DNA from: Candidatus Omnitrophota bacterium
GTDB taxonomy: Bacteria; Omnitrophota; Gorgyraeia; Aquiviventales; Aquiviventaceae
Direction of reading: 5' to 3'
Assembly: GCA_023247275.1 (NCBI GenBank)
Contig: JAHFGT010000012.1
Location: forward strand, 1-43,575
Length of the DNA stretch: 43,575 nt
The position numbers and the translations under genes are program-made. Under the pieces are notes generated by a model. It saw only the letters and a list, made by a program, of their open reading frames with translations. It had not been told where the DNA came from and searched no databases. This document shows positions 1 through 20,243 of this stretch, one piece after another; within the stretch, counting starts at the first letter, position 1; each line of letters starts with the position of its first letter.

Positions 1-303
1 CCGTACGTGGCGTTTGCCGCGATGTTAATGGCCGGGTTGGATGGAATCCAGAACAAGATCGACCCTGGCGATCCGGTCGACGAGAACATCTATGAGATGT
101 CGTCTGACCGTGCGCCGAAGCAGGTGCCGGGCTCGCTTGAGGAGTCGCTCAACGCGCTCGAGCGCGACCACGAGTTCCTGCTCAAGGGCGACGTCTTCAC
201 CCAGGATGTCATCGACGTCTGGTTGGAGTACAAGCGGCAGGAGATCGACAAGGTCCGCCTGCGCCCGCATCCGTATGAATTCTATCTGTATTTTGACGCC
301 TAA
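1..303 (+). CDS. glnA: Glutamine synthetase type I (beta), C-terminal fragment
   Basis: The window opens inside this gene; about 100 C-terminal residues are present, in frame from base 1 to the TAA at 301-303. The opening [16 protein letters not shown] matches the end of the GSI catalytic barrel. The following ENIYEM...VPGSLEESL segment aligns with the E. coli region around the adenylylated Tyr397 (NLYDLPPEE...GSLEEAL), so the modifiable tyrosine is conserved. That marks the I-beta subtype, which adenylyltransferase (GlnE) normally controls. The enzyme makes glutamine from glutamate, ammonia and ATP. A second, different GS (I-alpha) lies at 2729-4075. The N-terminal three quarters lie outside the window. 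Confidence 0.93.
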
Positions 304-330
304 TAGAATTCATCAGCCGTAGGTCAATCC

Positions 331-399
331 TTCGACTCGCTTTGCTCGTGCTTCGGCAGGCGCAGGATCGTGGTGAGCGAGGCCGAAGGCCGAGTCGAA
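331..399. repeat. Imperfect long hairpin, TTCGACTCG...CGAGTCGAA
   Basis: TTCGACTCG (331-339) is the reverse complement of CGAGTCGAA (391-399), and CTTCGGC (351-357) pairs with GCCGAAG (382-388) inside it. The word CGAGTCGAAGGA recurs at 10036-10047 upstream of rpsB. The two places may therefore be members of one dispersed intergenic palindrome family. No coding potential is seen here. Confidence 0.45.
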
Positions 400-12212: not shown

Positions 12213-12785
12213 ATGATCACGCAGAACAGTTTGCAAGGGCTGTATAAAGATGTTGAAGAGAAGATGAAGCGGGCGTTGGCCACGGTGACCCGAGAGTTCA
12301 CCGAGATCCGTGGCGGCCGGGCGACCCCGGCGCTCGTGGAGAATATCACGGTTGATTACTATGGGGCGGCGACCCCGCTGCGCCAGGTTGCGGCGATCAC
12401 GGCCCCAGAGCGGAATCTACTGACCGTCCAGCCGTGGGACATGAAGGTGGTCCCTGAGATTGAGAAAGCGATCCTCAAGGCGTCCATCGGAATTAATCCG
12501 ATCGTCGATGGAAAAATGCTCCGGCTGCCGATTCCTCCGCTGACCGGTGAGCGGCGCCAGGAGCTCACCAAGGTCATTCATCGCATGGCCGAAGAAGCCC
12601 GCGTCAGCATTCGAAATGTCCGACGCGACTCCAATGAATCCATCAAAAAGCTGAAAGCCGACAAACAGATGAGCGAAGACGAAGCGTTCAAGGCGCAGGA
12701 GCAGGTGCAGAAATTGACCGACAAGTACATCGCGCAGATCGATGGCCTCGTTAAAACCAAGGAACACGAGCTCCAAAGCGTGTAG
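12213..12785 (+). CDS. frr: Ribosome recycling factor
   Basis: A 190-residue RRF, which with EF-G splits post-termination ribosomes. EIRGGRATPALVENITVDYYGAATPLRQVAAITAPE, then PWDMKVVPEIEKAILKASIGINP and LPIPPLTGERRQELTK are the conserved core, followed by the charged coiled region RRDSNESIKKLKADKQMSEDE. Length is normal (185 in E. coli). It starts 3 nt after pyrH and ends the operon. A CopG-like antitoxin gene begins only 4 nt after its stop. Confidence 0.97.
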   Translation: MITQNSLQGLYKDVEEKMKRALATVTREFTEIRGGRATPALVENITVDYYGAATPLRQVAAITAPERNLLTVQPWDMKVVPEIEKAILKASIGINPIVDGKMLRLPIPPLTGERRQELTKVIHRMAEEARVSIRNVRRDSNESIKKLKADKQMSEDEAFKAQEQVQKLTDKYIAQIDGLVKTKEHELQSV

Positions 12786-12789
12786 CTGG

Positions 12790-13047
12790 ATGACTTATGT
12801 CACGACGAGTATTCGATTGGGAGCTGAGGCCTACCGACGGCTGCGACTGAAAGCCGCGGAGCAGCGCAAGAGCCTCTCTCAACTCATTCGAGAGGCTGTG
12901 GACGTCGCCTACGGTGCGCCAGGCCGCCGCACCACACGACGAGAGGCTCGTCACGATCCATTTGTTCGAATCATCGGGGTGTGTCGAACCGGAGTGCGTG
13001 ACGGGGCCCTCCACCATGATCGGGATATCTACGGGGTGAAGTCCTGA
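12790..13047 (+). CDS. Ribbon-helix-helix antitoxin (VapB-like)
   Basis: An 85-residue protein: TYVTTSIRLGAEAYRRLRLKAAEQRKSLSQLIREAVD is a ribbon-helix-helix DNA-binding unit. The C-terminal part is basic and ends DIYGVKS; 'DxIYG' tails are common in antitoxins paired with PIN toxins. Starting 4 nt after frr, it may ride on that operon's transcription. Its TGA at 13045-13047 is followed 7 nt later by the TTG start of the PIN gene. Confidence 0.78.
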   Translation: MTYVTTSIRLGAEAYRRLRLKAAEQRKSLSQLIREAVDVAYGAPGRRTTRREARHDPFVRIIGVCRTGVRDGALHHDRDIYGVKS

Positions 13048-13054
13048 GAGGCTG

Positions 13055-13454
13055 TTGATCGATACCAGCGCGCTGGTGGCGTTAGCTGATCAGAGCGATC
13101 AGTTTCATGTTGTTGCCAAAGCCTTCACGCGAACCATCACATCCGTGACAAGGCTGTACACGTCGAATTACATCCTGGACGAAATCGTGACACGTCTTCG
13201 ATTCATGGTGGGGGTCGTCGTCGCGGGTGGCTGAAACAATTTGGGCCAGCGAGCTCTATGAGGTCCACACGGTTGATCGCGCCCTGGAGCGAGAGGCGTG
13301 GCGATTACTCCGGAAGTACGCCGACCACCGGTTGAGTTTTACTGACGGCACCACGCTCGCTCTCATCGAGCAGTTGCAGATTCAGCACGTCTTTGCATTC
13401 GATGAGGACTTTCGCCGGCTCGGGCACTCTGTCGTGCCGGAATCGCCGCGTTGA
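13055..13454 (+). pseudogene. PIN-domain toxin (VapC-like), frameshifted
   Basis: The first frame, from TTG 13055 behind GAGAGG, reads LIDTSALVALADQSDQFH...SNYILDEIVTRLRFMVG and ends at 13234. A second frame (from about 13215) continues ETIWASELYEVHTVDRALEREAWRLLRKYADHRLSFTDGTTLALIEQL...FDEDFRRLG to 13454. Together they make a normal PIN domain of about 133 residues with acidic metal ligands at DTS, the E/D of LDEIV, SFTDG and FDEDF. Removing one G from the five-G run at 13210-13214 joins the frames. It could be a real loss of toxin, a sequencing error or recoding. Confidence 0.75.
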
Positions 13455-13549: not shown

Positions 13550-13558
13550 TGTTATAAT
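13550..13558 (+). promoter_or_regulatory. Extended -10 promoter of the split tRNA-Lys
   Basis: TGTTATAAT: a perfect TATAAT (13553-13558) with an extended-10 TG one base upstream. No good -35 is seen, as expected for extended -10 promoters. The start would be near 13565, giving a leader of about 50 nt before the tRNA. Confidence 0.6.
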
Positions 13559-13615
13559 GACACCGTCAGGACGTAAGTTTGTGCGTTCATGGTTGTCATT
13601 GATCTTTCACAATTT

Positions 13616-13945
13616 GGGCCGCTAGCTCATCAGGCAGAGCAACAGCCTTTGTCCAAGGGTCACTATCAGGTAACTGATAGCTGAGAACCCCGGAACTTGC
13701 GGGAACGTCTGAGCATCCTGAGGTACCGCGCCTTGTGGCGTGGTCACAAGCCGATGGTGCAGATAATCCGCAGCCAAGCCCCCGATGCTTTGCTTCGCAC
13801 AGGGAAGCGTCGGGGGAAGGTTCAACGACTATAATCGGGGCCCCCGTGAGTCCATCGGGGGATGGGATAGTCTGATCTGCACGGCGACGTGCAGCTAACA
13901 CCATGTTTAAGCTGTGGGTGCTGGGTTCGAGTCCCAGGCGGCCCA
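13616..13945 (+). tRNA. tRNA-Lys(UUU), interrupted by a group I intron
   Basis: Exon 1 is 13616-13648 and exon 2 is 13906-13945. Acceptor GGGCCGC (13616-13622) pairs perfectly with GCGGCCC (13938-13944), discriminator A13945, no encoded CCA. The D stem is GCTC/GAGC; the anticodon stem ACAGC (13642-13646) pairs with GCTGT (13911-13915). The joined loop is CTTTTAA, so positions 34-36 are UUU (Lys). The T arm is CTGGG-TTCGAGT-CCCAG. The gene cannot fold as a tRNA without removing 13649-13905. It has its own extended -10 promoter and a 16-bp hairpin directly after it. Confidence 0.93.
13649..13905 (+). ncRNA. Group I self-splicing intron (IC3-like), 257 nt, no ORF
   Basis: All core elements can be drawn. 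P1: GCCU-UU with AA-GGGU places a U-G wobble at the 5' splice site after U13648. P2: 13663-13669/13674-13680 with a GUAA tetraloop. P3: CCCCG 13688-13692/CGGGG 13836-13840. P4: TGCGG 13698-13702/CCGCA 13768-13772. P6a: 12 bp, 13779-13790/13805-13816. P7: GACTAT 13827-13832/ATAGTC 13867-13872. P8: 13841-13846/13856-13861. P9: 13877-13882/13889-13894. The intron ends in G13905 (omega-G). Conserved Q (AATCCGCAG), R (TTCAACGACTA) and S (GATAGTC) words are present. It has the size class of the Azoarcus and cyanobacterial tRNA introns. Confidence 0.92.
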
Positions 13946-13980
13946 TCATCATCCGACCGCGTTGGCGGTCGGATGATGAT
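13945..13980 (+). terminator. Perfect 16-bp hairpin abutting the tRNA-Lys 3' end
   Basis: ATCATCATCCGACCGC (13945-13960) and GCGGTCGGATGATGAT (13965-13980) are exact complements around a GTTG loop. The first base is the tRNA discriminator A. There is no T-tract (CCCGAAG follows), so it is a poor intrinsic terminator by the usual rules. It may instead block exonucleases or guide 3' processing. Confidence 0.5.
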
Positions 13981-14160
13981 CCCGAAGTCGGCCGGAATCA
14001 GATAGGCTGGCTGAGGGAGGGAACCGGATAACGGGTTCGAGTCCTCCCTCGTCGGCGCCCGGGCCTCGTCCCTCGGCTGGCGCCTCGGGACTTCGCGCGG
14101 CCTGCGCGCCGCGCTCGCCGGCGGCGCAATTCTGTACGATGGGTCATTCGGATGGCAGCT
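13981..14160. other. Gene-free GC-rich stretch between tRNA-Lys and the VapC module
   Basis: No convincing gene. It contains an 8-bp inverted repeat (GAGGGAGG...CCTCCCTC) around a GGGTTCGAGTCC word that looks like a tRNA T-loop, and further down several GC-rich self-complementary runs (GCGCGGCCTGCGCGCCGCGC and neighbours). It may be a decayed tRNA or an old integration site; I could not fold a complete tRNA. Confidence 0.35.
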
Positions 14161-14218: not shown

Positions 14219-14497
14219 GTGACGCAACGAGTCTCCATTACAGAAGTCAGCCGACATCTCTCGGATTACCTCAACCGCGTGGCGTATGAGGGGGCGCATT
14301 TTGTCCTGGTGAGGGGCAAGAAACCGCTCGCCGAGCTGCGGCCGCTCCCGCGGGGACGCTGCCTGGGAGAGCTGCCGGGGCTGCTGCATGCATTGCCGCG
14401 GCTGTCTCAACACGAGGCGGATCGATTCGGGCAGGACGTTGAGTCCGTTCGGAGGAAACTCCGCAAACAGCGCGTGCGGAGTCGATGGGCGTCTTGA
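14219..14497 (+). CDS. Phd/YefM family antitoxin
   Basis: A 92-residue protein from a GTG start. TQRVSITEVSRHLSDYLNRVAYEGAHFVLVRGKKPLAELRPL is the classic Phd/YefM fold (strand, helices, then the 'VxRxGKPxAxLxP' hairpin). The basic C-terminal tail (VESVRRKLRKQRVRSRW) probably neutralises the partner toxin. A strong ribosome site precedes it. It overlaps the PIN toxin gene by 13 nt. Confidence 0.85.
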   Translation: MTQRVSITEVSRHLSDYLNRVAYEGAHFVLVRGKKPLAELRPLPRGRCLGELPGLLHALPRLSQHEADRFGQDVESVRRKLRKQRVRSRWAS

Positions 14498-14886
14498 TTG
14501 ATTCCAGCGTCCTCATCGCCGCCGAACGAGGACGCGTCGATGTGACGTCCAAGATTCGAGGGCGCGAGCAGGAAGAATTCTTCATTTCTGTCGTCACCGC
14601 AAGCGAGCTGCTCCACGGCGTCTGGCGGGCTCGTGAGGCTCAGGTGAAAGCCAAGCGGCTCGCGTTTGTTGAGGGAATCCTTCAGCGGTTTCCGATTCTT
14701 CCGATCGACCTGGCCATTGCTCGCCTCCATGCGCAGTTGTGGGCAGAACTCGAGTCGCAGGGGGTGGCCTTGGGCGCCCATGATAGCTGGCTTGCTGCGA
14801 CCTGTATCGCGCGCGGCTACACGCTTGCGACGGGGGACATCGGAGATTTCAAGCGGGTCCCTGGATTGGCCGTGGAGACGTGGTAG
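14485..14886 (+). CDS. vapC: PIN-domain toxin VapC
   Basis: A 133-residue intact PIN nuclease. GVLIDSSVLIAAERGR carries the first Asp, VVTASELLHGVWRA the conserved Glu, and LGAHDSWLAATCIARGYTLATGDIGDFKRVPGL the last Asp residues that bind Mg2+/Mn2+. Known VapC toxins cut tRNA anticodon stem-loops or 23S rRNA; the target here is unknown. It is translationally coupled to the Phd-like antitoxin. An RNA ligase and its activator (archease and RtcB) follow within 1 kb. Confidence 0.9.
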   Translation: MGVLIDSSVLIAAERGRVDVTSKIRGREQEEFFISVVTASELLHGVWRAREAQVKAKRLAFVEGILQRFPILPIDLAIARLHAQLWAELESQGVALGAHDSWLAATCIARGYTLATGDIGDFKRVPGLAVETW

Positions 14887-14955: not shown

Positions 14956-15321
14956 ATGGTATCGTGGTTTGTGTACATCGCTGAGTGCGGTGACGGGTCA
15001 CTGTATGTTGGCATTGCGACCAATCCGGCCGCACGCTTGGTCCAGCATAATGCTGGGCGAGGCTCGAAATATGTCCGCAGCCGGGGCGGGGCGGCGTTGG
15101 TATATCAGCAACGCTGCCGCAGCGAATCGGCGGCTCGTCGGCGCGAGTGCGAACTAAAATCGTGGAGCCGGGCGCGCAAGTTGGCGTGGCTGCAGCAACG
15201 CACGAGCCATGGGCACCACAGCGCACTACGAATTCTTCGACCACACGGCGGACGTTGGAATCCGCGCGACCGGATCGACGCTGGACGCGGTGTTCGAGCA
15301 GGCGGCCCGTGGCTTGGTTGA
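14956..15321 (+). CDS. GIY-YIG domain protein (YhbQ/UPF0213-like)
   Basis: The first 80 residues (SWFVYIAECGDGSLYVGIATNPAARLVQHNAGRGSKYVRSRGGAALVYQQ...ELKSWSRARKLAWL) are a complete small GIY-YIG nuclease-like domain; here the signature reads VYI...LYVGI. Family proteins normally end near there. This frame runs on 40 residues of odd, Arg/Gly-rich composition and overlaps archease by 113 nt, which suggests a lost stop codon or a start of archease translation inside this gene. YhbQ-type proteins are linked to DNA repair; substrates are poorly known. Confidence 0.8.
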   Translation: MVSWFVYIAECGDGSLYVGIATNPAARLVQHNAGRGSKYVRSRGGAALVYQQRCRSESAARRRECELKSWSRARKLAWLQQRTSHGHHSALRILRPHGGRWNPRDRIDAGRGVRAGGPWLG

Positions 15322-15631
15322 GCTGATCGCCGAGCAGAGCCGGTTCGAGCCGGCTGAGGCACGGTCCATCGAACTTCACGCGGTCGATACCAGCGTGCTG
15401 CTGGCCACGTGGCTGCGCGAACTGTTGTTCTGGAGCGCGACCGACCGGTTCCTGCCGGCGGTCTACCAGATTCACGTGACACCCACTACGCTCGTCGGCA
15501 CGGTGCGCGGCGAGCGGTTTGACCCGGCGCGTCATCAGCAGGGACGAGAAGTCAAAGCGATCACGCGCCACCAGCTCGAGATTCGCCAGACCCCATCCGG
15601 GTGGCACGCGCAGGTCATTGTGGACATCTGA
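15209..15631 (+). CDS. Archease, RtcB activator
   Basis: A 140-residue archease. YEFFDHTADVGIRATGSTLDAVFEQAARGLVELI is the family signature, with the Asp residues that bind Ca2+. Archease helps RtcB acquire GMP and turn over. The RtcB gene starts 3 nt after its stop, so partner and ligase form one operon. The ATG lies within the extended tail of the GIY-YIG gene, so translation is probably coupled. Confidence 0.93.
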   Translation: MGTTAHYEFFDHTADVGIRATGSTLDAVFEQAARGLVELIAEQSRFEPAEARSIELHAVDTSVLLATWLRELLFWSATDRFLPAVYQIHVTPTTLVGTVRGERFDPARHQQGREVKAITRHQLEIRQTPSGWHAQVIVDI

Positions 15632-15633
15632 TC

Positions 15634-17097
15634 ATGAGACCAGGGACCACCTCAGCAGCCAACAGTATCAGGCTTGAGCGGCTGGACACCAACCGCTGGC
15701 ACATCCCGCCAACCGGTGGTATGCGAGTGCCTGGAGTCATCTTTGCCAACGAGCGGTTGATGCGCGATCTGCAGGCCGATCCGGCGCTGCAGCAGGTGGC
15801 AAATGTCGCGCACTTGCCAGGGATCGTCAAGGCCTCATTTGCGATGCCGGACATTCACTGGGGCTATGGATTCGCGATTGGCGGTGTGGCCGCGGTCGAT
15901 GCCAGCGACGGGGCGATCTCTCCTGGGGGCGTGGGCTACGATATCAATTGTGGCGTGCGGCTTGTGCGCACCGGGCTGTACGTCGATGAGGTTCAGCCGA
16001 AGTTGAAGACGCTGGTCGCGTCGCTGTTCAACGATGTCCCCTGCGGCGTCGGGATGAGCGGCGAGATCCGTCTGGGCCATCGCGACGCAGAACGCGTGAT
16101 GATCCAGGGGTCGCGGTGGGTGATTGGCAAGGGGTATGGTACCGCCGAAGATGTGGCGCACACCGAGTCTGAGGGATGCTTGCCAGACGCGGATCCGTCG
16201 CAGGTGTCTGAGCGCGCGCGCCGACGCGGCAGCGACCAGCTCGGGACCCTGGGCTCTGGCAACCATTTTCTTGAAGTACAAGCGGTCGAGACGGTCTATG
16301 ATCCACGCGCCGCCGCGCTAGGGTTGCAACAGGGACAGGTTGCGGTCATGATCCACTCTGGTTCTCGCGGGTTCGGCTATCAGATTTGCGACGATTACCT
16401 TGAGGTGACCGCGCAGGCGATGGCCGAATACGGGATCCAGGTGCCGGATCCGCAGCTGGCGTGTGCGCCGCTGCGCTCTGAGGCTGGACGCGCCTATCTT
16501 GGCGCGATGCGGTGCGCGGCCAATTATGCGTGGGCCAACCGGCAATGCTTGATGCATCTGGCCCGGGTCACATTCGAACGCGTCTTTGGACGCAGTTGGG
16601 AATCGCTGGAGATGGCGCTGGTCTATGATGTCGCGCACAACATCGCGAAATTTGAGCGCCACCGGGTCGATGGCCGCGAGCAATTGGTGTGTGTGCATCG
16701 TAAGGGTGCCACGCGGTCATTCCCGCCAGGCCACCCAGAGGTGCCGGCCGATTACCAAGCCATCGGCCAGCCGGTGATCGTCCCGGGCGACATGGGGCGG
16801 TACTCGTTTGTGCTGGTGGGCACCGAGACAGCGATGACCGAATCGTTCGGTAGTTGTTGTCACGGCGCTGGGCGGGTGATGTCTCGCGCGCAGGCGGTCA
16901 GGCACGCGGCCGGCCGATCCATCGAACACGAGCTGGAACAGCAGGGAATCATCGTGATGGGCCGGGGCCGAACAGGAATCGCCGAAGAGCAGCCGAGCGC
17001 GTACAAGGACGTCAATGACGTGGTGCAGGTGGTGCACGAGGCTGGGCTGGCCACACGGGTGGCTCGGCTGCGGCCGTTGGGCGTCATCAAAGGATAG
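15634..17097 (+). CDS. rtcB: RtcB family RNA ligase (GTP-dependent)
   Basis: A 487-residue 3'-phosphate/5'-hydroxyl RNA ligase. Key elements: GVGYDINCGVR (about residues 100-110) with the metal-binding Cys106, GTLGSGNHFLEVQ, HSGSRGFGYQI, VYDVAHNIAK, and SCCHGAGRVMSR, where His410 corresponds to the guanylylated histidine. The ATG at 15634 is preferred over upstream in-frame codons because it follows the archease stop directly. RtcB repairs RNAs cut to 2',3'-cyclic phosphate ends, including tRNAs. Neighbours are a VapC ribonuclease upstream and serS with a tRNA cluster downstream. Confidence 0.96.
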   Translation: MRPGTTSAANSIRLERLDTNRWHIPPTGGMRVPGVIFANERLMRDLQADPALQQVANVAHLPGIVKASFAMPDIHWGYGFAIGGVAAVDASDGAISPGGVGYDINCGVRLVRTGLYVDEVQPKLKTLVASLFNDVPCGVGMSGEIRLGHRDAERVMIQGSRWVIGKGYGTAEDVAHTESEGCLPDADPSQVSERARRRGSDQLGTLGSGNHFLEVQAVETVYDPRAAALGLQQGQVAVMIHSGSRGFGYQICDDYLEVTAQAMAEYGIQVPDPQLACAPLRSEAGRAYLGAMRCAANYAWANRQCLMHLARVTFERVFGRSWESLEMALVYDVAHNIAKFERHRVDGREQLVCVHRKGATRSFPPGHPEVPADYQAIGQPVIVPGDMGRYSFVLVGTETAMTESFGSCCHGAGRVMSRAQAVRHAAGRSIEHELEQQGIIVMGRGRTGIAEEQPSAYKDVNDVVQVVHEAGLATRVARLRPLGVIKG

Positions 17098-19101: not shown

Positions 19102-19164
19102 CGTACCCCTCGGCACATACCGTGTGCCTCGGGGCGAATGGCCACTGGTATCTGAGGGCCAATC

Positions 19165-19251
19165 GGAGGAGTGGCTGAGTGGTTGAAAGCGCCTGTCTTG
19201 AAAACAGGTAGAGCCGCAAGGCTCTCAGAGGTTCGAATCCTCTCTCCTCCG
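19165..19251 (+). tRNA. tRNA-Ser(UGA)
   Basis: An 87-nt class II tRNA: acceptor GGAGGAG/CTCCTCC, discriminator G19251. The anticodon loop CTTGAAA has TGA at 34-36. The long variable arm, GAGCC-GCAA-GGCTC, is a serine identity element. T loop TTCGAAT. CCA is not encoded. Confidence 0.96.
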
Positions 19252-19271
19252 TGTTTCAGTTCATTGATGCT

Positions 19272-19358
19272 GGAGAGGTGGCTGAGTGGTTGAAAGCGCT
19301 GGTCTCGAAAACCGGTAGGGCCGCAAGGCCCTCGAGAGTTCGAATCTCTCCCTCTCCG
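19272..19358 (+). tRNA. tRNA-Ser(CGA)
   Basis: An 87-nt class II tRNA: acceptor GGAGAGG/CCTCTCC, discriminator G19358. The anticodon loop CTCGAAA gives CGA. The variable arm is GGGCC-GCAA-GGCCC. It closely resembles the preceding tRNA-Ser. CCA is not encoded. Confidence 0.96.
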
Positions 19359-19452
19359 TTTTCACGGAATGTTCCGACGCTGGAAGGGCCATTTCTCTCT
19401 TTGCAGAGGGCTTGTTCCGCTTTACACTGTCTCATACTTGGGGGACCGTTCA

Positions 19453-19541
19453 GGAGAGGTGCGAGAGCGGTTGAATCGGCACGCTTGGAAAGCGTGAAGC
19501 TGCCGCAAGGTGGCTCCCGGGTTCGAATCCCGGCCTCTCCG
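19453..19541 (+). tRNA. tRNA-Ser(GGA)
   Basis: An 89-nt class II tRNA: acceptor GGAGAGG/CCTCTCC, discriminator G19541. The anticodon stem CACGC/GCGTG surrounds loop TTGGAAA, so GGA is at 34-36. Long variable arm (GCTGCCGCAAGGTGGC). CCA is not encoded. Confidence 0.95.
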
Positions 19542-19555
19542 TTGGTTGCATCTGT

Positions 19556-19629
19556 GCGCTCGTAGCTCAACTGGATAGAGCATCAGCTTGCGGAGCTGAG
19601 GGTTCCGAGTTCAAATCTCGGCGAGCGCG
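19556..19629 (+). tRNA. tRNA-Arg(GCG)
   Basis: A 74-nt tRNA: acceptor GCGCTCG (19556-19562) pairs with CGAGCGC (19622-19628), discriminator G19629. D stem GCTC/GAGC; anticodon stem TCAGC/GCTGA with loop TTGCGGA, so the anticodon is GCG (reads CGC). T arm CCGAG-TTCAAAT-CTCGG. Most bacteria instead use tRNA-Arg(ACG), whose A34 is converted to inosine by TadA. A TadA homologue begins 29 nt downstream. Confidence 0.94.
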
Positions 19630-19657
19630 TTTTCTTTGAGGTAGGGGAACAGCTTGC

Positions 19658-20119
19658 ATGATGAAACCGGATGAGCAGTATATGCGCGAAGCGCTCAAAG
19701 AGGCCGAACAAGCGCTCGTGTCGAAGGATCGGCCGATCGGCACCGTGATTGTCCAGGATGGGCAGGTGATCGCTCGCGCGCACCACCAGGTCAAGCTGCT
19801 GCGCGATCCGACCGCGCACGCGACGATTATCGCCATTACGCAGGGGGCGAACGCGGTACAGTCGGATCAGTTGCCAGAGGTGTCGGTGTATGTCACGCAG
19901 GAGCCGTGCGCGATGTGCATGGGGGCGCTGCTGTTGTGTGGCGCGGCACGAGTGGTGTATGGCGCGGCCGATACCAAACGCGGGGCGTGCGGATCGGTCA
20001 TTGATCTGACGAATAATGAGCGGCTCAATCGCCGGCTCATCGTCGTCCGGGATGTGCTGGCCGGTGAGTGCTCGGCGCTGCTGCGCAAATCGGCGGCGAG
20101 TTTGCGGGCTGGGAGCTAA
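19658..20119 (+). CDS. tadA: TadA-family deaminase homologue lacking the catalytic Glu
   Basis: A 153-residue cytidine-deaminase-fold protein aligning along its length with tRNA adenosine deaminase TadA (RPIGTVIVQDGQVIA, DPTAHA, YVTQEPCAMCMGALL, VVYGAADTKRGACGS). The zinc ligands (His of TAHA, Cys pair of PCAMC) are present. The motif that should read HAE reads HAT, so the proton-shuttling glutamate (E. coli Glu59) is a threonine. The Asn that contacts the target base (E. coli N46, in WNRP) aligns with His in AHHQ. It lies between tRNA-Arg(GCG) and tRNA-Ser(GCU). It may be an inactive or repurposed relative. Either ATG (19658 or 19661) could start it. Confidence 0.88.
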   Translation: MMKPDEQYMREALKEAEQALVSKDRPIGTVIVQDGQVIARAHHQVKLLRDPTAHATIIAITQGANAVQSDQLPEVSVYVTQEPCAMCMGALLLCGAARVVYGAADTKRGACGSVIDLTNNERLNRRLIVVRDVLAGECSALLRKSAASLRAGS

Positions 20120-20141
20120 CGGATTTCTCTTCTGTGGAATT

Positions 20142-20234
20142 GGAGAGGTCGCATAGGCCGGTCGAGTGCGGCGGTTTGCTAAACCGTTGTACGGGGGAAA
20201 CCCCGTACCGAGGGTTCGAATCCCTCCCTCTCCG
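20142..20234 (+). tRNA. tRNA-Ser(GCU)
   Basis: A 93-nt class II tRNA: acceptor GGAGAGG/CCTCTCC, discriminator G20234. Anticodon loop TTGCTAA gives GCT at 34-36. Long variable arm (GTACGGGG-GAAA-CCCCGTAC). T arm GAGGG-TTCGAAT-CCCTC. It completes the set of four serine isoacceptors downstream of serS. Confidence 0.95.
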
Positions 20235-20243
20235 GTTTTTCAC

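Follow-up and report, generated by a model that had tools for sequence, protein, structure and literature searches.

The closest described counterparts of the intron discussed here interrupt cyanobacterial tRNA-Leu(UAA), Agrobacterium tRNA-Arg(CCU) and Azoarcus tRNA-Ile(CAU), all of them, like it, small group I ribozymes without an ORF that sit in a bacterial tRNA's anticodon loop. An intron with the endonuclease I-Ssp6803I splits tRNA-fMet of Synechocystis, and in plastids it is tRNA-Lys(UUU) itself that is interrupted, by a group II intron usually accompanied by matK. In Patescibacteria, another uncultured phylum, group I introns reportedly occupy a novel position in tRNA, to go by the title of a 2025 preprint (doi 10.1101/2025.07.03.662931). 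Such introns have caused fMet or Ile2 genes to be missed in 36 genomes (tRNAscan-SE 2.0), and a 2014 review of bacterial group I introns leaves Lys unmentioned; PMC12641178 cites the 2025 preprint on the Patescibacteria insertion site. No published account of a bacterial tRNA-Lys(UUU) interrupted by a group I intron came up in a literature search that excluded preprints and most subscription papers.

The DNA analysed here, a stretch of 43,575 nucleotides from an Omnitrophota genome (referred to below as the window), contains what we have very little doubt in taking, from its sequence, to be a catalytic group I intron, situated in the anticodon loop of the only tRNA-Lys(UUU) gene detected in that genome and spliced out of the transcript.

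An interrupted tRNA-Lys(UUU) gene

The gene lies on the plus strand, as do all the elements of gene and intron located below. Exon 1 (tRNA positions 1-33; 13616-13648) was delimited by ARAGORN, by the sequence itself and by its match to orthologues, the 257-nt intron (13649-13905, the last base being its terminal G) by a match to the Rfam group I family, and exon 2 (tRNA positions 34-73, beginning with the anticodon UUU and encoding no CCA; 13906-13945) by ARAGORN. The intron falls between U33 and U34, beside the anticodon; as with other bacterial tRNA introns, it occupies the anticodon loop of a gene that is intact once the intron is removed. In its normal mode ARAGORN reported five tRNAs in the window and missed this one; when introns were allowed it returned tRNA-Lys(ttt) with a 257-nt intron, and from the joined exons it gave a perfect tRNA-Lys(UUU) of 73 nt. 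Standard tRNA finders miss split genes of this kind, so that genomes appear to be without tRNA-Lys(UUU) or an initiator tRNA. On sequence alone the exon border could shift, since the intron begins with TT and exon 2 with TTT; it is the combination of a U33-G wobble at the 5' splice site with the terminal G that fixes the border at 33/34. A preliminary description of this DNA had already rebuilt a perfect tRNA-Lys(UUU) from two exons and put the split at 33/34, and it is upheld in both respects.

A candidate -10 element of the promoter is the TATAAT at 13553-13558, a sequence that stands before tRNA-Lys in many members of the family. Immediately 5' of the tRNA is a boxA-like leader, GATCTTTCACAATTT (13601-13615), which is kept in both intron-bearing and intron-free family members and which we take to resemble the rrn boxA antitermination element. 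Immediately 3' of the gene lies an inverted repeat, or stem-loop (13946-13979; a minus-strand self-match of 89% over 35 bases). A conserved stretch further downstream (13960-14051) is single-copy and had no match among RNA families; in some relatives it runs into the apparent start of a GIY-YIG gene.

On its sense strand the intron (13649-13905) has no ORF reaching 60 codons, in line with the preliminary description, which saw no ORF, and it carries no homing endonuclease gene. An antisense ORF of 118 codons across the split gene (13596-13952) exists mechanically, and gave no significant family match.

Fold and proposed splicing of the intron

The assignment to group I, also made in the preliminary description for the 257-nt insert, is borne out by a match to RF00028 over 13639-13894 (58.7 bits, the gathering cut-off being 50; E 1.7e-12), and the single-strand fold energy of the intron is low compared with shuffled sequences (z -5.4). 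The fold was examined in an alignment of 16 introns from the tRNA-Lys 33/34 site, each with 10 nt of either exon. Cells forming standard pairs amounted to 92.0%, against 36-44% when partners were slid, a control that favours the fold because this had been read from the window intron, itself one of the 16. Column shuffles gave 83.6% paired cells and 41 both-side changes (119 were observed), and in no shuffle were there as many pairs with both-side changes as the 31 found, although it should be borne in mind that the relatedness of the sequences inflates all such comparisons with shuffles. Covariation thus supports a P1-P9 fold.

P1 (13646-13659) would pair CCU^UU with AAGGG, the latter being the internal guide sequence (13655-13659), and has the U33-G wobble at the 5' splice site (marked by the caret); CCU/GGG with this U-G pair is kept in 16/16 introns. 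P2 (13663-13680), of 7 bp with a GUAA tetraloop, is paired in 98% of cells and covaries in six of its seven pairs, and P3 (13688-13693 with 13835-13840) has both-side changes in three pairs. P4 (13698-13703 with 13767-13772), invariant and paired in all 16, encloses P5, P5a and P5b, of which P5b covaries and P5a is not conserved, being poorly paired (47% across the 16 introns), a point that counts against the reading. P6 (13773-13775 with 13819-13821) is also invariant, and is extended by a P6a of 12 bp (13779-13790 with 13805-13816), where four of the five counted pairs covary. P7, the guanosine-binding helix (13827-13832 with 13867-13872), is again invariant and paired in 16/16. P8 (13841-13845 with 13857-13861) is 98.8% paired, with covariation in 4/5 pairs, and P9 (13877-13894), of 7 bp with a GCGA tetraloop, is 100% paired, with covariation in 4/7. 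Between P7 and P9, P9.0 (13875-13876 with 13903-13904), which would position the terminal G, changes from U-A to C-G in three of the 16; the terminal G at the 3' splice site does not vary. Because P4, P6 and P7 are invariant they provide no covariation evidence themselves, and such invariance is what a catalytic core would be expected to show. The GNRA loops of P2 and P9 would fit an IC3-like subgroup. Of the elements named in the preliminary description, the P1 wobble, P2 with GUAA, P3, P4, the 12-bp P6a, P7, P8, P9 and the terminal G were all recovered, and its anatomy proved correct wherever it was checked.

Removal of the intron would almost certainly take place by two-step transesterification. 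The transcript would fold as a P1-P9 ribozyme, and free guanosine held in P7 would attack the bond 3' of U33, marked by the wobble in P1; the freed U33 end would then attack the bond 3' of the terminal G, placed there by P9.0, and the ligated exons would form a 73-nt tRNA-Lys(UUU), expected to read AAA and probably AAG too. What the DNA shows directly is the sequence, the conserved fold, the intact orthologues with an identical mature tRNA and the lack of a detected spare gene; the catalysis and its efficiency are inferred, and a protein may help, as some group I introns need one for splicing.

Intact orthologues and probable dependence on splicing

The joined exons are identical, at 73/73 bases, to the uninterrupted tRNA-Lys(UUU) of four other genomes of the family, belonging to three genera (G002 and G024, which share a genus, G014 and G021). 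The neighbourhood pyrH-frr-tRNA-Lys-archease-RtcB-SerRS, in which Pfam supports the window's own genes, is common to most members, whether intron-bearing or intron-free. From the identity of the exons and the common neighbourhood, we conclude that the split and the intact loci are two states of a single orthologous gene.

A second tRNA-Lys(UUU) was not detected in the 86%-complete assembly of the window's genome, which does carry tRNA-Lys(CUU). Taken alone, that assembly could lack a second gene that the organism has. An intact tRNA-Lys(UUU) was found by pattern in none of 15 intron-bearing genomes (two matches, in L283 and L294, are not tRNAs), so none of the 15 has both the split and the intact form, and 12 of 20 other family members have the intact one. 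In 16 of the window's long ORFs (picked by length and uncurated), AAA accounts for 74 of the 172 codons for Lys. With no spare UUU gene detected, the split gene must yield a working tRNA, and an allele unable to splice would be lethal or nearly so; the absence of a spare is the strongest indirect evidence of function. That the gene is dead instead, splicing having been lost and AAA being decoded by another tRNA, seems to us extremely improbable: the incompleteness of the assembly gives this idea some room, but the exons are free of mutations and equal to intact orthologues, the intron core is intact, and an intact copy is missing not only here but from the 14 further intron-bearing genomes.

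Neighbouring genes

Genes for archease and the RNA ligase RtcB (15209-17097) lie just downstream of tRNA-Lys, an arrangement kept in several families. They might be thought to serve removal of the intron by proteins, in which an endonuclease would cut where exon and intron meet and archease and RtcB, encoded next door, would join the halves. We give this scheme next to no credence, since the same archease-RtcB neighbours adjoin intron-free tRNA-Lys genes (the pair is therefore independent of the intron, and we rejected it as a splicing partner) and a complete, covarying ribozyme core would be pointless if proteins removed the intron. Moreover, the ends produced by group I cleavage, 3'-OH and 5'-phosphate, are not those that RtcB uses.

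Further on, shortly downstream of the seryl-tRNA synthetase gene, there are four tRNA-Ser genes (UGA, CGA, GGA and GCU) and tRNA-Arg(GCG) (19164-20235). Nearer to tRNA-Lys, toxin-antitoxin-like pairs stand on either side (12742-13454 and 14219-14886; RHH with PIN, and Phd/YefM-like with PIN), the first PIN ORF covering only the C-terminal part of the domain. A free-standing GIY-YIG gene (14956-15321) also occurs near the ORF-less intron. Such a gene is found near five of seven split loci in the family, the window included, against three of 12 intact loci, and we see no clear link between it and the split state.

Distribution and history of the Lys intron

The preliminary description knew of no described case in Lys(UUU) at 33/34. 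This stands insofar as the searchable papers hold no report, but the intron is not a lone example, there being at least 16 at the identical site, as well as one at 33/34 of tRNA-fMet in the same genome. When 85,000 species genomes were scanned for the 3' junction (terminal G with the 3' half of tRNA-Lys directly behind it), junctions fitting a split tRNA-Lys turned up in nine contigs, of which six bear the title Omnitrophota and the others, one apiece, Planctomycetales, Chlamydiae and Elusimicrobia; two of the nine end inside the gene. In a sample of 384 genomes of the phylum the pattern occurred in 35, of which about 11 fit a split tRNA-Lys. Both scans demanded an exact exon 2 pattern, and so undercount. 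Most pattern matches outside Omnitrophota were rejected, not being split tRNA-Lys genes, and the Chlamydiae- and Elusimicrobia-titled contigs may be misbinned or the genes transferred. The former (L064) has its split tRNA-Lys at the contig end (about 75-390, minus strand), adjoined by pyrH and frr; only 5/7 acceptor pairs form, and the contig end may be chimeric or the gene may have decayed. No copy of the intron was found in phages or plasmids by blastn, and 52 pattern matches in viral contigs included no credible split tRNA-Lys, the top-scoring one resembling two consecutive tRNA genes.

The complete Lys introns found in relatives measure 237-364 nt (287 nt in L036, for example), a length that leaves no room for a typical endonuclease gene in addition to the ribozyme. 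In L102 (4145-4190) exon 1 of tRNA-Lys occurs a second time, with the first intron bases attached, about 560 bp upstream of the complete split gene.

Mapped on a pyrH, frr and SerRS tree, the split state requires six changes, at least three of them forced by well-supported branches. The intron sequences cluster according to the family of the host: those of the window's family are 76-86% identical to one another and about 62-76% identical to those of the other families. Together these fit an old resident that has been repeatedly lost and perhaps sometimes regained. Most likely the intron is an old and near-neutral occupant of its site in the class. Because the family has the split and the intact form of a single orthologous gene side by side, how a tRNA intron is gained and lost, and at what cost, can be tested directly.

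Could it be kept for some benefit to the host, such as gating the supply of tRNA or, as the preliminary description suggested, shielding the 33/34 bond of the precursor from PrrC-like anticodon nucleases? That bond is the one cut by PrrC, and the PIN-domain genes on both sides of the locus might be thought suggestive. We nevertheless consider such a benefit very improbable: no PF13166 (PrrC) match was found in the window's genome at 86% completeness (on which ground we dropped the PrrC link), the mature tRNA would stay exposed regardless, the intron is patchily present among close relatives, and introns occur also at 34/35 and 35/36 of other tRNAs.

Other group I introns of the class

Group I introns were found in 85 of 147 searched genomes (that of the window and its relatives), and the class is thus well supplied with small natural ribozymes. 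Many of them lie at Lys(UUU) 33/34, fMet 33/34, Asn(GUU) 35/36, Tyr(GUA) 35/36 and Arg(UCU) 34/35, according to an explicit home-made tRNA model of which single assignments may be wrong (some Asn placements can be read as Thr 33/34 instead). Several unplaced introns have 23S rRNA-like flanks; in L003 (minus strand, about 685-2094) a 23S rRNA gene is broken by some 1.4 kb with a weak group I match (23.3 bits).

The window's genome has a second group I intron, of 294 nt, which splits tRNA-fMet(CAU) at 33/34 (L002, 1510-1803; G000 contig C8, about 16003-16296) and scores 47 bits, just below the Rfam cut-off. The Lys intron has no sequence match to it beyond short words and represents a separate lineage. 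Some introns of the class (L034-L197) contain PD-(D/E)XK or HNH-like genes; the Asn intron of one relative encodes an HNH-like protein just below the Pfam cut-off. It is conceivable, and in our estimation a rather slim chance, that the class harbours several distinct, site-specific lineages in anticodon loops (Lys 33/34, fMet 33/34, Asn and Tyr 35/36, Arg 34/35), of which two split the only detected essential tRNA genes of their kind here, so that decoding would depend on several ribozymes at once, and guanosine, magnesium or temperature could serve to tune it.

Comparison with known tRNA introns

The fMet intron of another relative encodes a homologue (E 2.6e-46) of PDB 2ost, the structure of I-Ssp6803I, and resembles in this the Synechocystis tRNA-fMet intron, in contrast to the window's Lys intron, which has no endonuclease gene. 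With the plastid trnK(UUU) intron the Lys intron shares its location in the anticodon loop of tRNA-Lys(UUU) and differs in being of group I. It is nearest to the introns of tRNA-Leu(UAA), tRNA-Arg(CCU) and tRNA-Ile(CAU), having in common with them the U-G wobble at the 5' splice site, the terminal G and the GNRA loops in P2 and P9, and differing in its host tRNA, in the split at 33/34 and in its phylum, Omnitrophota. Judged by its sequence, it is an element of a known kind, real and almost certainly active, in a host gene that appears to be unreported, and with it tRNA-Lys(UUU) joins the short list of tRNAs that are hosts to group I introns in bacteria.
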